A stretch of DNA of 20,123 nt from a virus. A program made the translations under genes and the position numbers. Positions 3,261 to 19,708 of this stretch are shown here, piece after piece (the first letter of the stretch is position 1; each line of letters opens with the position of its first letter). The notes beneath the pieces are model-generated. The model ran no database searches. It worked only from the letters and a program-made list of their open reading frames with translations, and was not told where the DNA came from. The DNA lies in IMG/VR virus record IMGVR_UViG_3300044691_000044, positions 1 to 20,123 of that record; one strand, given 5' to 3'.

Positions 3261-3875
3261 TCAGGCGGCCTTCTTGACTGGCAGCTTGAAGATTTCATTC
3301 AGCTTGCCGACCGGGATTGCAGGCAGCTTCGTCGGGTTGGAGAAAAACCGCTGCGTAAACGGCTCAATCTCAGGCCACGACTTGAGAAGCGCGGGCAGCG
3401 TCGTTACACTGTTGATCGCGGCATTGGCCTGTTTCTCGGCAGCGCTGATGCGCTCCCCCAAGTCCTTGCTGGCGGAGATCAGGGCTTGGTGGCGAACTGA
3501 AAGCCGGTGGTCTGGCGCATAGACCTTTGCGCAATGGTTGTTGTGCTTGGAGAGAACGCGCCGATTGATGTTCTCGATTTTGTCGGTGGACTTCTTGCGT
3601 AACTTGTTGAATGAGCCGTAGACGCCGCCGTTGAAGTAAAGCGAAGCGTAGGCCGCGCCAGTGTCGCCGAACTGGACGGAAATCAAATTGGTTTCCGGCA
3701 GCCAGCCAGCGGGGAGAGCGTCGATCTTTTCGCGCTCGACCTTGCGGTAAAGGTCATCATAGACATCCGACGCAAACGACTTGCGGGAAGTTACGAAGGC
3801 CTCGATCTCATCCGAGAACCGATGGCGCATGATTTCGAGAGCCAAGGTCTCCCGGATATAGTTCGTAAGCCTCAT
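3261..3875 (-). CDS. Nmad5-family protein (nucleotide-modification-associated)
   Basis: The 204-residue protein starts MRLTNYIRETLALEIMRHRF. It carries YDDLYRKVEREKIDALPAGW (about 39-58) and ISVQFGDTG (65-73), and ends with a WPEIEPF...LPAIPVGKLNEIFKLPV segment. This order matches the phage family called Nmad5, found beside DNA-modification genes in some phages; its biochemical activity is not established. I chose the ATG at 3875 (GGAGAG five bases before) over an upstream opening at 3938, which would cross the operator. It is the first gene of the leftward operon and sits 45 bases from a repressor-type operator, so expression is probably repressor-controlled. Family assignment is from memory. 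Confidence 0.55.
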   Translation of the reverse strand: MRLTNYIRETLALEIMRHRFSDEIEAFVTSRKSFASDVYDDLYRKVEREKIDALPAGWLPETNLISVQFGDTGAAYASLYFNGGVYGSFNKLRKKSTDKIENINRRVLSKHNNHCAKVYAPDHRLSVRHQALISASKDLGERISAAEKQANAAINSVTTLPALLKSWPEIEPFTQRFFSNPTKLPAIPVGKLNEIFKLPVKKAA

Positions 3876-3918
3876 CTCGTCTCTCCATCGCTGGCCGGTA
3901 GGAATTTGCCGATGGATA

Positions 3919-3949
3919 GATGAAAGCACAGCTTTCAATGTGATGCAAG
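3919..3949 (-). promoter_or_regulatory. Candidate PL promoter of the left operon
   Basis: On the minus strand CTTGCAT (3949-3943) forms a possible -35 and, 17-18 bases on, TTTCAT/TTCATC forms a weak -10. The same arrangement, with the same spacing and the same operator in the spacer, is present in front of cro. This conservation, not the match to consensus, is the support. Transcripts would start about 35 bases before the Nmad5-type gene, leaving room for its GGAGAG site. Confidence 0.4.
3921..3937. promoter_or_regulatory. Operator O1 (left), TGAAAG-N5-CTTTCA
   Basis: A perfect palindrome, TGAAAGCACAGCTTTCA (7-bp arms, 3-base centre). Read on the minus strand it is identical to the site in front of cro, including three flanking bases (CAT). 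It overlaps the proposed left promoter and is the expected binding site of the CI-like and/or Cro-like protein. Confidence 0.7.
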
Positions 3950-3954
3950 CGAAA

Positions 3955-3971
3955 TGAAAGAAATACTTTCA
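3955..3971. promoter_or_regulatory. Operator O2 (left), TGAAAG-N5-CTTTCA
   Basis: TGAAAGAAATACTTTCA has 6-bp perfect arms and a 5-base centre, matching O1 in every arm position. Its centre is 34 bp from that of O1. It lies upstream of the proposed left promoter, fitting a second, possibly cooperative, repressor site. Confidence 0.65.
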
Positions 3972-4017
3972 ATTATTTTGGGCCGGATTCGAAAACGGTG
4001 ATTCTGGCCGCCATCTC

Positions 4018-4767
4018 CTAGGGAGAACCGGCCATTACAATCTTATGGAGGGCCACTACCGCACTGCACGCAAAGGTTAGAACCTTTTTCGGGTGCAGTT
4101 GCATGACTTTTAGGGTCTTATCGTCCTTGGAGACGAACCGTTTGACGTAGCCGACCACGGGTCCGCCGTCCGATGTTTGGATTTGAACCACCACATCGTC
4201 GTCTTTTTTGATCGGCTCATATGGATGAACGAAGACGACCTCGCCATGCTTGAATCTCTCAAGCATCGAATTGCCTATGACGTAGACAGCATAGGCGTCA
4301 GGAACGCCGTGCAACTTCGGTGGGGCCTCGATCTCTCCGAAATTGTCATCGGCGGTAAAGATTAGCGCACCTTCTCTTCCGCCCATGCCCTGGCCCCTAA
4401 TCGGAACTCTCGCATACCCCTCGATGGGTAGGCCAAGCTCGGCATTGTGCACGAATTTCCTTCGCGCGGTAATTATTTGTCGTGGGGCCGACACAATACT
4501 TTTGGACGTTCCACTTTCCGGAACTTTTGATTCAAATGTCATCGGCTCGATGCCAACCCCGCGTTCGAGCCAGTTAAGATCGACATCGAACTTGTCGGAT
4601 ATGGCGGCCAGGTTGGCGCGGCTGATCCCGCCGCCCAGCTCCCAGTTCCCCACGGCGCCGCGGGTGATCCTGATGCCTTCGACCTCGCCGAGGGCCTCGG
4701 CGAATTTCTCCTGCGACAGGCGCGCCCGCTTCCGCACCTGCTTAATTCTTGTGGCTCTATTCCCCAT
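4018..4767 (-). CDS. CI-like repressor (XRE HTH + S24 LexA-type domain)
   Basis: The 249-residue protein has an N-terminal XRE helix-turn-helix (about residues 5-65: RIKQVRKRARLSQEKFAEAL, then GAVGNWE). A linker follows, then a C-terminal S24 domain with the Ser motif VIGNSMLERFKHGEVVF (Ser167) and the Lys motif GYVKRFV (Lys209). Such proteins hold the phage in lysogeny and are inactivated by RecA-stimulated self-cleavage. The usual Ala-Gly cleavage pair is not seen; the matching stretch reads RGQGMGGREGA. An in-frame ATG at 4803 would add 12 residues and abut an operator; I prefer 4767 because the HTH begins there, but 4803 with a leaderless mRNA is possible. Palindromic operators lie on both sides of the gene, indicating autoregulation. 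Confidence 0.85.
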   Translation of the reverse strand: MGNRATRIKQVRKRARLSQEKFAEALGEVEGIRITRGAVGNWELGGGISRANLAAISDKFDVDLNWLERGVGIEPMTFESKVPESGTSKSIVSAPRQIITARRKFVHNAELGLPIEGYARVPIRGQGMGGREGALIFTADDNFGEIEAPPKLHGVPDAYAVYVIGNSMLERFKHGEVVFVHPYEPIKKDDDVVVQIQTSDGGPVVGYVKRFVSKDDKTLKVMQLHPKKVLTFACSAVVALHKIVMAGSP

Positions 4768-4803
4768 GTCATCGAGAGTGCCCTTTTCCCATCGCGCATT
4801 CAT

Positions 4804-4820
4804 CGAAAGATATACTTGCA
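4804..4820. promoter_or_regulatory. Operator O4 (right), degenerate
   Basis: CGAAAGATATACTTGCA matches 10 of 12 arm positions of TGAAAG-N5-CTTTCA. Its centre is 23 bp from that of O3, the spacing of lambda-type tandem operators. It overlaps a TATATC hexamer that could be the -10 of the repressor gene's own promoter on the minus strand, so it is a candidate autorepression site. Confidence 0.5.
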
Positions 4821-4845
4821 ATTCATTGAAAGCTGTGCTTTCAAT
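4815..4845 (+). promoter_or_regulatory. Candidate PR promoter of cro
   Basis: CTTGCAA (4815-4821) followed 18 bases later by TTCAAT (4840-4845) matches the layout of the left promoter. If used, transcription would begin at about 4851-4852, at the ATG of the cro-like gene, giving a leaderless mRNA. The cro-like gene indeed has no Shine-Dalgarno sequence. Both hexamers are imperfect. Confidence 0.4.
4827..4843. promoter_or_regulatory. Operator O3 (right), TGAAAG-N5-CTTTCA
   Basis: TGAAAGCTGTGCTTTCA is a perfect palindrome whose arms can be extended by one base each side (T4826/A4844). It is identical to O1 read on the other strand; with three flanking bases the shared word is CATTGAAAGCTGTGCTTTCA. 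It lies between the divergent repressor and cro-like genes and would block the rightward promoter when occupied. Confidence 0.7.
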
Positions 4846-4850
4846 GCGCC

Positions 4851-5093
4851 ATGAGCGATTTGGAACCAGTATCCGACCCGGCCGCGGTTGCCCTGACTGA
4901 GGCAAAACAGGCCGTAAACGGCGCCAGCGGCCTCGCCCGTGCGCTCGGGGGCGAGATCAGCCCGCAGGCCATCTCCCAGTGGAAGCGCGTCCCAGCGGAG
5001 CGCGCGGCCGATGTAGAGCGGGTGACTGGGATTCCTCGGCATCGGCTCCGACCTGACATTTTCACCCGGCCTGAGACGGAGACTGCGGCGTGA
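4851..5093 (+). CDS. Cro/YdaS-like HTH regulator
   Basis: The 80-residue protein has a single helix-turn-helix: AVNGASGLARALGG, then ISPQAISQWKRVPAERAADV, then ERVTGIPRHRLRPDIF near the end. The RVPAER..DVERVTG...H.LRPDI signature is that of the YdaS/Cro-like family, which opposes a CI-type repressor and promotes the lytic programme. It is divergent from the repressor gene and starts eight bases after operator O3 with no ribosome binding site, so its mRNA may be leaderless. Its stop overlaps a GTG start of the next gene (GTGA). Confidence 0.8.
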   Translation: MSDLEPVSDPAAVALTEAKQAVNGASGLARALGGEISPQAISQWKRVPAERAADVERVTGIPRHRLRPDIFTRPETETAA

Positions 5094-6231: not shown

Positions 6232-6258
6232 GCAAGCCCGCGACACATGGGGGAAGTG

Positions 6259-6789
6259 ATGGCGTCACTCGCAATCGAAGCCGATCAGAGACACAGACGC
6301 TTCCATGCCGAGATCGCGCGCCGGGCCATGCTCGTATCCCAACGCGAGGACCGACGATCGTACTTCATCCCAAATACACCGTTTGGCGTTCTGAAAATCG
6401 CGCCAAAAGCGCCAGCCAGGATCGTTCCGATCTATCGAATGTGGTTTGAGGACCTGATTGAAGAGGCGGAGCGGCGCATGAAGCCTGCGGCGCCTCTCAG
6501 CATTGACGACATCCAGGCGGAAATAGCCCGCTTTTACGATGTAAGCAAAGCCGATCTTTTATCGCCTGTCCGAACCACGGAATTAGTCAGGCCGCGACAG
6601 GTGGCATATTATCTTTGTCGGCAACTCACCCCGCGCTCGCTTCCAGACATTGGGCGCAGATTCGGCGGCAGAGATCATTCTACGGTTCACCGCGGCAATC
6701 AGAAGATAGCCGACCTCATCGTGCGAGATGCAATCCTCGCAACTGAAATTGAAAAGATCAAGGCCGCCCTCGTAATGAGGCTGGCATGA
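6259..6789 (+). CDS. Stand-alone DnaA domain IV (origin-binding) protein
   Basis: The last 90 residues of this 176-residue protein are a DnaA C-terminal DNA-binding domain: IQAEIARFYDVSKADLLSPV, then RPRQVAYYLCRQLTPRSLPD, then FGGRDHSTVHRG, which is the DnaA signature contacting DnaA boxes. No AAA+ ATPase domain is present, so it can bind DNA but not melt it. The N-terminal part is basic and of unknown fold. I chose the ATG at 6259 (GGGGGA just upstream) over that at 6247, which lacks a ribosome site. It is coupled to the VRR-NUC gene by ATGA and lies close upstream of the replication initiator, suggesting a role in replication initiation or in recruiting or mimicking host DnaA. Confidence 0.8.
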   Translation: MASLAIEADQRHRRFHAEIARRAMLVSQREDRRSYFIPNTPFGVLKIAPKAPARIVPIYRMWFEDLIEEAERRMKPAAPLSIDDIQAEIARFYDVSKADLLSPVRTTELVRPRQVAYYLCRQLTPRSLPDIGRRFGGRDHSTVHRGNQKIADLIVRDAILATEIEKIKAALVMRLA

Positions 6790-9999: not shown

Positions 10000-10074
10000 G
10001 CGGCGTTAGCTCAATGGTAGAGCTACAGTCTTCCAAACTGAGGACGAAGGGTTCGATTCCCTCACGCCGCTCCA
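10000..10074 (+). tRNA. tRNA-Gly(TCC), CCA encoded
   Basis: The 75-base sequence folds as a standard tRNA: acceptor GCGGCGT/ACGCCGC, D-arm GCTC/GAGC with loop AATGGTA, anticodon loop CTTCCAA (anticodon TCC at 10032-10034), T-loop TTCGATT, discriminator T and encoded CCA (10072-10074). There are single mismatches at the outer ends of the anticodon and T stems. It would read GGA and related Gly codons. It stands alone between the regulator gene and the packaging genes, so it is phage-carried and not a host tRNA at an attachment site. From its end to 10341 I see no gene. Confidence 0.9.
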
Positions 10075-10341
10075 ATCAATTCCAATCGGACGGCCTTTCC
10101 CCTCTCGCGGCCGCTCAAGCCCCCTCCCAAGACGTGGTGCCAGTGAATAGGGGATGGGCTGTCCGAGATGAATCTGACTGCGGCGTTGCTGCTGAGCGGA
10201 CGACCCACATTGAGCAACCTATGTGGCCCCGCGTCGGAAGCTGGGAGTTGCGCCCCAGCCGGTCAGATACTTTTTCGATTCAATCGAGAGCGAAGCAAAC
10301 TGCACCGCATTTGCGATCACCTGACCACGGAGAAACCTGAA

Positions 10342-17976: not shown

Positions 17977-19173
17977 ATGGCCCTCACTGCCAATCACGTC
18001 AACAATGAAGTCATCAAATTCCGCAAAAACGCGGCAATCGACTTCCTCCGCAAATCCCGGTTCGACCCCTTCATGGGATCGGATTCGACCTCCGTCATCG
18101 TCCGCATGAGCGATCTTGCCGGCGACGGCAAGGAAATCAATATCCCGCTGGTAACCCAGCTCACGGGCTCCGGCGTCGGTGCCGGCATCCTGCGAGGTGC
18201 TGAAGAGCAGATCGACTCCTACGGCTTCCCGGTCTGGGCGGACTGGGCTCGTAACGCGGTCGCCAACAACCGCGCTGTGAACAAGGAGTCGTCGTTCTCG
18301 ATCCGCTCAACGGCTCGTTCGCTACTGTCGGGCTGGTCGCGTCGTATCGTTCGCGATGACATCGTGGATGCGCTGCTGTCGATCCCGACCGCATCGGTCC
18401 AGGCTGGGCGCCTCACGGCAACGGGCGGCGGCAACCGCGTCAACGGCGTGAAATGGTCGGCAGCGACCACGGCGCAAAAAAATACCTGGGTTACCGCCAA
18501 TCAGGATCGCGTCGTGTTCGGCTCGGTCATTGCGAACTACTCGACCACGTTCGCGACCGCGGCGGCCAACGTCGATTCCACCAACGACAAGATGACGGCG
18601 GCGGTGGGCTCGCTGATGAAGAACGTGGCACAGCAGACCGGCGTTTCCGCCTCCAATCCCGGCGTTTACAACGGCCTGCCGAAAATCACCCCGTTCCAGA
18701 TGAAGAGCACGGATCAGGAATGGTACATCTGCTTTCTCGGTTCGCGGGCGATGCGCGATCTCAAGGCCGATCCGGTCATGTTCCAGGCCAATCGGGACGC
18801 GCGGGAACGTGAAGGTGCCGATCCGACGAAGGTCAATCCGATCTTCACGGGCGGCGGGCTGATCTTCGATGGCGTGATCTATCTGGAAATCCCGGAAATC
18901 ACCCAGCGGCTGCTTCTGGCCGGTATCGGCGCCAGCTCGATCGCGGTCGAGCCTGTGTTCCTGTGCGGTCAGGGCGCTTTGGCTTACGCCATGGGCCAGA
19001 TGCCGCGCCCGACCACGCTTGAGGACGGGGATTATGATTTCATTTCAGGCATGGGCATCGAAGCTCAATATGGAGTGGGAAAAGTCGCCAAGGCCAGCAT
19101 TAACGACTCGTCGAATACACTCGTTGACTGGGGTATCGTAACGGGTTTCGTAAGCGGCGTCGCTAACGCTTAA
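17977..19173 (+). CDS. Major capsid (coat) protein, N4 gp56-like family
   Basis: The 398-residue protein starts MALTANHVNNEVIKFRKNAA and has the features of the phage capsid family related to N4 gp56 (DUF4043): DSTSVIVRMSDLAGDGKEIN, then LVTQLTGSGVGAGILRGAEE near residues 60-80, and a long middle with GSRAMRDLKADPVMFQANRD. EDGDYDFISGMGIEAQYGVG lies near the end. It forms the HK97-fold icosahedral shell. AAAGGATA lies before the ATG, and an intrinsic terminator stands between it and the scaffold. Its final 11 bases overlap the antisense HNH gene. Confidence 0.85.
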   Translation: MALTANHVNNEVIKFRKNAAIDFLRKSRFDPFMGSDSTSVIVRMSDLAGDGKEINIPLVTQLTGSGVGAGILRGAEEQIDSYGFPVWADWARNAVANNRAVNKESSFSIRSTARSLLSGWSRRIVRDDIVDALLSIPTASVQAGRLTATGGGNRVNGVKWSAATTAQKNTWVTANQDRVVFGSVIANYSTTFATAAANVDSTNDKMTAAVGSLMKNVAQQTGVSASNPGVYNGLPKITPFQMKSTDQEWYICFLGSRAMRDLKADPVMFQANRDAREREGADPTKVNPIFTGGGLIFDGVIYLEIPEITQRLLLAGIGASSIAVEPVFLCGQGALAYAMGQMPRPTTLEDGDYDFISGMGIEAQYGVGKVAKASINDSSNTLVDWGIVTGFVSGVANA

Positions 19174-19708
19174 ACGCCGAGTTTTGAGATTTTGCAAGGG
19201 TTGCCTCGTAAGCAGCCTTTGCTTCTTCAAGGGTGTGGAAGTCTCCTATGAACTTTCGCTTTTTATCCACCTGCATCAACACCCGGAATTTCTTTGATCC
19301 GGCGCGTTTGGTTTTCATCGGATAGATGCAACTCAATCCGAGAGAATTGGCGCTCCGTGTCTTTAGATTCCATGTGTTCTGCCATTGGGTAGCGGCTCGG
19401 AGATTCCCCCATCGGTTATCATCCGGTTCCCCGTTTATATGGTCAACCTGCTCTGTTGGATCGGCATTCGTCATCATCTTCCAGACGATACGATGCACAG
19501 TAGTTAGACGACCATTAACGCGGACTTGGCGATGGCCACAGGTGTTTACTGCGCCGACCTGCTTGCCGGCGTACTTCGTATTGAATGTCCTGTTTTCCCT
19601 CGTATCGGGCGGACGCACTTTCCAGATCAAAATCCCAGCGATGGGATCGTAATGGAAAAGAGCATGAAGCTCTGCGGCGGGAGGTGTGGGCAATATCTGT
19701 ACTGGCAT
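19163..19708 (-). CDS. Homing-type HNH endonuclease with AP2 domain
   Basis: The 181-residue protein has an HNH core in HRIVWKMMTNADPTEQVDHI followed by NGEPDDNRWGNLRAATQWQN (about 70-110), with the motif VDHIN carrying the conserved Asp-His. The C-terminal GLSCIYPMKTKRAGSKKFRV ... FIGDFHTLEEAKAAYEATLA is an AP2-like DNA-binding domain. This HNH-AP2 layout is typical of free-standing phage homing endonucleases. It lies antisense in the late region and converges on the coat gene, overlapping its last codons. There is no Shine-Dalgarno sequence; a strong promoter places the likely transcript start at the ATG. Confidence 0.85.
   Translation of the reverse strand: MPVQILPTPPAAELHALFHYDPIAGILIWKVRPPDTRENRTFNTKYAGKQVGAVNTCGHRQVRVNGRLTTVHRIVWKMMTNADPTEQVDHINGEPDDNRWGNLRAATQWQNTWNLKTRSANSLGLSCIYPMKTKRAGSKKFRVLMQVDKKRKFIGDFHTLEEAKAAYEATLAKSQNSAFKR

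Follow-up and report, generated by a model that had tools for sequence, protein, structure and literature searches.

Described switches closest to the locus

The immunity region of phage lambda follows the order OL-cI-OR-cro, with the operators placed over PR. Among characterised systems, the nearest to the locus described here is immC of Rhizobium phage 16-3, for which we took the operators (OL1, OL2, OR1, and OR2) from the annotation of NC_011103. Both in 16-3 and in the window (i.e., the whole stretch of 20,123 nucleotides of viral DNA analysed here), a single repressor gene has a pair of operators to its left and another to its right, at a distance of about 850-900 bp, and the promoters (PL, PR, and Pc) either overlap the operators or directly adjoin them. 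The C-terminal domain of the 16-3 C repressor is furthermore 41.5% identical to that of the window repressor (E=5e-33), whereas its N-terminal domain has no detectable similarity to that of the window protein. The operators of 16-3 are also different, being of the ACAA...TTGT type with another length and spacing and with no TGAAAG site in the region, and no YdaS-type cro is annotated beside the repressor. With lambda, the locus shares the gene order, the overlap of the OR sites with PR, a predicted leaderless cI, and the S24 C-terminal fold. Lambda has three operators per side, however, versus two clear ones in the window (three at OR in some relatives), and the window differs also in having a cro of the YdaS/P22_Cro type that is predicted to be leaderless, in lacking rexAB-type genes between OL and cI, and in its unrelated operator sequence.

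Labrenzia phage vB_LagS-V1 (PP058680, host Roseibium aggregatum) has the same recognition helix and the same Cro type as the window; at the place of PL it carries a TGAAAG site (L215:2953) with CTTGCA upstream of it, and a variant site occupies the OR position (L215:4951). Its repressor, in contrast, lacks an S24 domain, OL and OR are about 2 kb apart, and its record (PP058680) carries no operator annotation. In the portions of the reports at hand, the switches of PY54 and PaaR2/YdaS (PMC4488713, PMC8630535) are likewise described as having leaderless switch mRNAs, with YdaS binding operators in a short divergent region; these are enterobacterial systems with other operator sequences, and the same portions describe no equivalent left operator pair.

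The switch in the window thus belongs to the lambda/16-3 kind of twin-operator switch, a known type, and its operator sequence is one of which we found no earlier description when searching the literature for the motif and for immunity regions of Bradyrhizobium phages. A nucleotide search of the region against 50,697 phage records also gave no matches.

Operator sites beside the repressor gene

A reading of the sequence alone had pointed to palindromes of the form TGAAAG-N5-CTTTCA at 3921, 3955, and 4827 with a degenerate copy at 4804, and our motif search recovered all four. On the left of the repressor gene are OL1 (TGAAAGCACAGCTTTCA, 3921..3937), which overlaps the -10 region of PL and is kept in 43 non-redundant loci, and OL2 (TGAAAGAAATACTTTCA, 3955..3971), which lies upstream of the PL -35, 34 bp away from OL1. 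On the right, OR1 (TGAAAGCTGTGCTTTCA, 4827..4843) overlaps the -10 region of PR, and the degenerate site is OR2 (CGAAAGATATACTTGCA, 4804..4820), a copy with two mismatches whose right half, CTTGCA, also serves as the PR -35; its degeneracy fits this double role as an operator half and a promoter element. The left and right arrays are not equivalent, since OL1 and OL2 are 34 bp apart in the window versus 23 bp for OR1 and OR2. All four sites are confined to the two gaps beside the repressor gene, namely 3876-4017 and 4768-4850, and a search tolerating up to two mismatches gave no other match in the 20,123-base record. When the record was shuffled 100 times, the mean number of such matches was 0.73 and none of the 100 shuffles reached 4, while base composition predicts about 0.0006 exact matches for the window.

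A 20-base word shared by the two sides, CATTGAAAGCTGTGCTTTCA, was also found as claimed, at 3921-3940 (minus strand) and 4824-4843 (plus strand), against an expectation of zero, and CTTGCA does stand at equal distance on both sides (4815-4820, plus; 3944-3949, minus), each copy beginning 12 bases upstream of its site. Indeed, the left and right arms form an inverted repeat of 29 nt with 90% identity. The leading CAT of the 20-mer varies, however, in the closest relative, L004, where the right-hand word is GGATGAAAG and the left-hand one CTATTGAAAG, suggesting that the constrained unit is the 17-bp site with the upstream CTTGC and the spacer TGC and not the full 20-mer.

Conservation of the arrangement in relatives

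Searches with the repressor and Cro found relatives with a matching arrangement, one of them a Bradyrhizobium sp. 141 prophage. With a profile built on the N-terminal domain of the repressor, 80 loci were retrieved, or 63 after removal of near-duplicates; among these non-redundant loci, a site was present within 300 bp upstream of cI in 48/63, downstream in 47/63, and on both sides in 45/63. The motif turning up at random elsewhere had been named as what would speak against the sites, and we saw no further copy in the record and none with up to one mismatch in 281 kb of DNA flanking the relatives' loci. In the records of L004 and L005 sites occur at the switch only, and in 12 further phage records nearly all are in the switch region. 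The occurrence of sites around cI in 45/63 loci together with their absence from 281 kb of flanking DNA argues that the palindromes are operators. In the contig of L108 (IMGVR_UViG_2896003607_000008), a second operator-like site pair was noted at 63460-63508, about 20 kb from the switch, and this is perhaps a separate element of the same operator class.

The spacing of these elements is rigid. OR2 is exactly 23 bp from OR1 in 42/44 non-redundant loci, the cI ATG lies 75-76 nt from OR1 in 42/44, and, in every locus where the cro start codon was found, 23-27 nt separate it from the first base of OR1 (43/43). The OL1-OL2 distance is 33-36 bp in 36/43 loci, and about 27/44 have an OR3-like site at 41 or 45 bp from OR1. 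The lambda-like OL/PL and OR/PR pair about the repressor that was proposed from the sequence alone is hence upheld across many relatives.

Part of the survey had been queried with GAVGNWE, so that the invariance of the recognition helix there is partly circular. A pattern of the PR region composed of DNA only (CTTGCA-N6-TGAAAG-N3-TGCTTTCA), which avoids such circularity, was run on IMG/VR and matched 30 contigs. Twenty-eight of them were also in the list obtained with the repressor N-terminal domain; the 29th encodes RGAVGNWE and a Cro helix, and the 30th is cut off and shows the site pair only.

The duplicate-free list also contains 13 retrieved loci (of the 63) without the motif, most of which have the same recognition helix with another upstream layout, and the helix alone therefore does not dictate the site. 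Loci with this helix and without TGAAAG-N5-CTTTCA sites are L131, L136, L142-L144, L152, L160-L163, and L167-L176; some such loci have half-site-like words (TGAAAGCAAACG, TGTAAGCAATAT) 200-255 bp upstream.

Predicted promoters and transcript starts

PR is predicted at 4816..4844 (plus strand), with a -35 of TTGCAA (4816-4821), a 17-bp spacer, a TGC extended -10, and a -10-like TTTCAA (4839-4844), and from the conserved spacing its start would be at about 4851, which is the A of the cro ATG. PL, predicted from the sequence and a PL profile, lies at 3920..3948 (minus strand) and has a -35 of TTGCAT (3943-3948), again a 17-bp spacer and a TGC extended -10, and a -10-like TTTCAT (3920-3925). A consensus promoter scan called neither of them in the window because the -10 TTTCAA is far from TATAAT. 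For cI, a weak PRM-like promoter is predicted at 4775..4803 (minus strand; ATGAAT, 17 bp, CACTCT) with an expected start at about 4767; it matches sigma-70 poorly in the window, and relatives have a better -10 (CATAGT, CATATT). OR3 is not recognisable in the window, where its position is degenerate. In relatives with OR3, this site sits in the spacer of the weaker predicted cI promoter, the start of which would coincide with the cI AUG.

Since the choice of sites relied on the 12 palindrome positions, the conservation of these is partly built in, and the five central positions played no part in that choice. Among the latter, a T at position 9 and a G at position 10 (the first base being 0) occur in 100% and 100% of OR1, 98% and 100% of OL1, and 67% and 47% of OL2. 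Near-invariance of TG in OR1 and OL1 with a weaker occurrence in OL2, upstream of the -35, is as expected if TG serves the promoter, and the invariant TGC in OR1 and OL1 looks like an extended -10. OL2 retains its palindrome despite its position upstream of the -35. Furthermore, CTTGC is nearly invariant upstream of both OR1 and OL1 and constitutes, on the right, half of OR2. A shared operator and promoter function would explain why the OR1 and OL1 words are alike, rather than a recent duplication.

Leaderless cI and cro mRNAs are predicted from the positions of the start codons. Such mRNAs have been demonstrated for cI and cro of PY54 (PMC4488713) and for paaR2, which adjoins ydaS (PMC8630535), at least in the parts of these reports available to us, and are hence plausible here. 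The first gene downstream of PL (3261..3875, minus strand) encodes a 204-aa protein with an Nmad5 (nucleotide modification associated) domain (Pfam, E=4.7e-25), and this gene has a leader and an SD-like GGAGAG.

Repressor and Cro-like protein

The repressor gene (4018..4767, minus strand) encodes a cI-like protein of 249 aa, in which Pfam finds an HTH_3 N-terminal domain and an S24 C-terminal domain and which is a transcriptional repressor in PHROG. In the AlphaFold model (mean pLDDT 79.9, pTM 0.51, with a disordered linker), the recognition helix RGAVGNWE (residues 36-43) is helix 3. Fold searches matched the N-terminal domain to the operator-bound P22 c2 repressor and the 434 repressor, and the C-terminal domain to lambda CI, including the octamer structure 1kca, and to LexA; a sequence search of solved structures with CI gave no matches. 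Ser167 and Lys209, the Ser/Lys dyad of S24, are invariant in the alignment of 14 relatives, and the protein thus has the make-up of a lambda-type repressor, namely an N-terminal HTH and a C-terminal S24 domain with the dyad. In S24 repressors, the cleavage dipeptide is usually Ala-Gly. Around residues 127-131 of the window protein, Gly-Gly (GQGMGGREG) stands in the apparent place of that dipeptide, at what we take to be the position of the LexA/lambda cleavage site.

Some loci (L126, L133, L135, L170, and Labrenzia phage L215:4469-4951) encode short repressors of about 140-160 aa that keep the recognition helix and the operators and have no S24 domain, so that induction through self-cleavage seems impossible. 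The motif is unchanged where the C-terminal domain differs or S24 is absent, and in 16-3, conversely, the C-terminal domain is common while the N-terminal domain and the operators differ; in both comparisons, the operator type goes with the N-terminal domain of the repressor, which is what binding of the sites by this protein would predict.

The cro-like gene (4851..5093, plus strand) is divergent from cI and adjoins OR. Its 80-aa product belongs to the YdaS/P22_Cro family, passing the curated Pfam cut-offs of both PF15943 (43.7 bits; cut-off, 30) and PF14549 (33.8 bits; cut-off, 30.2), and resembles in its sequence a Cro protein of solved structure, 3bd1.

A probable lambda-style switch and its alternatives

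Copies of one operator flank the repressor gene and overlap the predicted outward early promoters, and a divergent Cro-type gene adjoins OR. Taken as a whole, the locus is best explained as a lambda-style lysis/lysogeny switch with the four sites as its operators, a reading to which we assign a probability of about 0.9. The positions of the sites, their conservation and geometry, the protein families, and the predicted fold are established; from these we infer which protein binds the sites, repression, activation of PRM, and the leaderless transcripts. A dimer of the CI-like repressor would read each 17-bp site through helix 3 and, bound at OR1/OR2 and OL1/OL2, would cover the -10 and -35 of PR and PL, turning off the early operons on the cro side and the Nmad5 side. 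When bound at OR2, the repressor probably helps its own promoter, which has its predicted start about 45 bp away from the centre of OR2. The Cro-like protein, judging from lambda and YdaS, probably occupies these sites too and turns down PL, PR, and cI. Each site would be operator and promoter at once, with CTTGCA as the -35 and TGC as the extended -10, and the cI and cro mRNAs would both begin at their AUG.

A DNA loop between OL and OR through CI oligomers, as in lambda, could be added to this switch without replacing it. The presence of sites on both sides in most loci and the resemblance of the C-terminal domain to that of lambda CI in the octamer structure are in line with looping, but the spans between OL1 and OR1 are widely spread (835-5208 bp) with no helical phasing at 10.3-10.7 bp, and one repressor family without the S24 domain still has operators on both sides. 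We consider the chance of such a loop to be somewhat short of even.

Alternatively, one phage protein might use the sites alone, either the YdaS-like Cro with CI acting elsewhere or CI by itself. Several motif-bearing loci were indeed found through Cro similarity alone, and split roles have a precedent in PY54, where Cro binds only OR3 according to the part of that report at hand (PMC4488713). In our alignment, nonetheless, RGAVGNWE is invariant in all motif-adjacent repressors, including seven that were not retrieved through CI similarity, and the repressor C-terminal domains vary where the operator does not; a single user of the sites is thus unlikely.

Far less probable is that the palindromes serve a host regulator of the phage early genes, with CI acting elsewhere. 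The sites do overlap promoters, and the host regulator CtrA reportedly governs genes in certain phages of Alphaproteobacteria (PMC9437464). The sites, however, track the CI/Cro module across phages of otherwise different content, and the PR arrangement was found in only 2/265 genomes of the host genus of L093, one of them being that prophage itself, whereas a host regulon would be expected to give many sites. As for a recent inverted duplication that left the left side without a regulatory role, the 29-nt repeat is what would favour it, but we reject it as scarcely credible since OL1 and OL2 persist in relatives where the left word has drifted away from the right one (in L093, the central words of the two sides differ from each other) and the OL-OR distance varies across relatives over the range given above.

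A possible immunity class and use of the motif

Returning to the lambda-style switch, the proposal of the sequence-only reading that these operators define the immunity specificity of this phage holds in part: the operator is not private to one phage, being common to dozens, and would instead define an immunity class. One operator specificity with a near-invariant repressor domain would then be common to many alphaproteobacterial temperate phages whose C-terminal domains differ (some without S24), and distant phages may form a single cross-immunity group in which both switch genes are leaderless; we offer this tentatively, as a reading that is rather more doubtful than probable. The analysis provides a precise and testable map of operators and promoters for a large set of little-studied temperate phages, encountered here in Bradyrhizobium and Roseibium. 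The motif can be used to locate switch regions and to predict cross-immunity between phages, and also to study how the DNA-reading domain of the repressor moves between phages independently of the induction domain.

Other features of the record

Judging solely from the nearest relatives of the window phage, the host is probably a Bradyrhizobium-like soil bacterium. No tyrosine-integrase match was found in the window record, which may be a fragment; four related phage records have one each, three of them above the cut-off, in keeping with a temperate phage. HNH-type nuclease matches lie near both ends of the record (203-658 and 19163-19708, both on the minus strand). In the early operon, a gene at 6247-6789 (plus strand) encodes a 180-aa protein with the DnaA C-terminal DNA-binding domain (PF08299, E=6e-26), in which no second Pfam domain was found. 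A tRNA-Gly (TCC) gene is also predicted at 10000-10074 (plus strand), overlapping the start of an ORF at 10014-10340.
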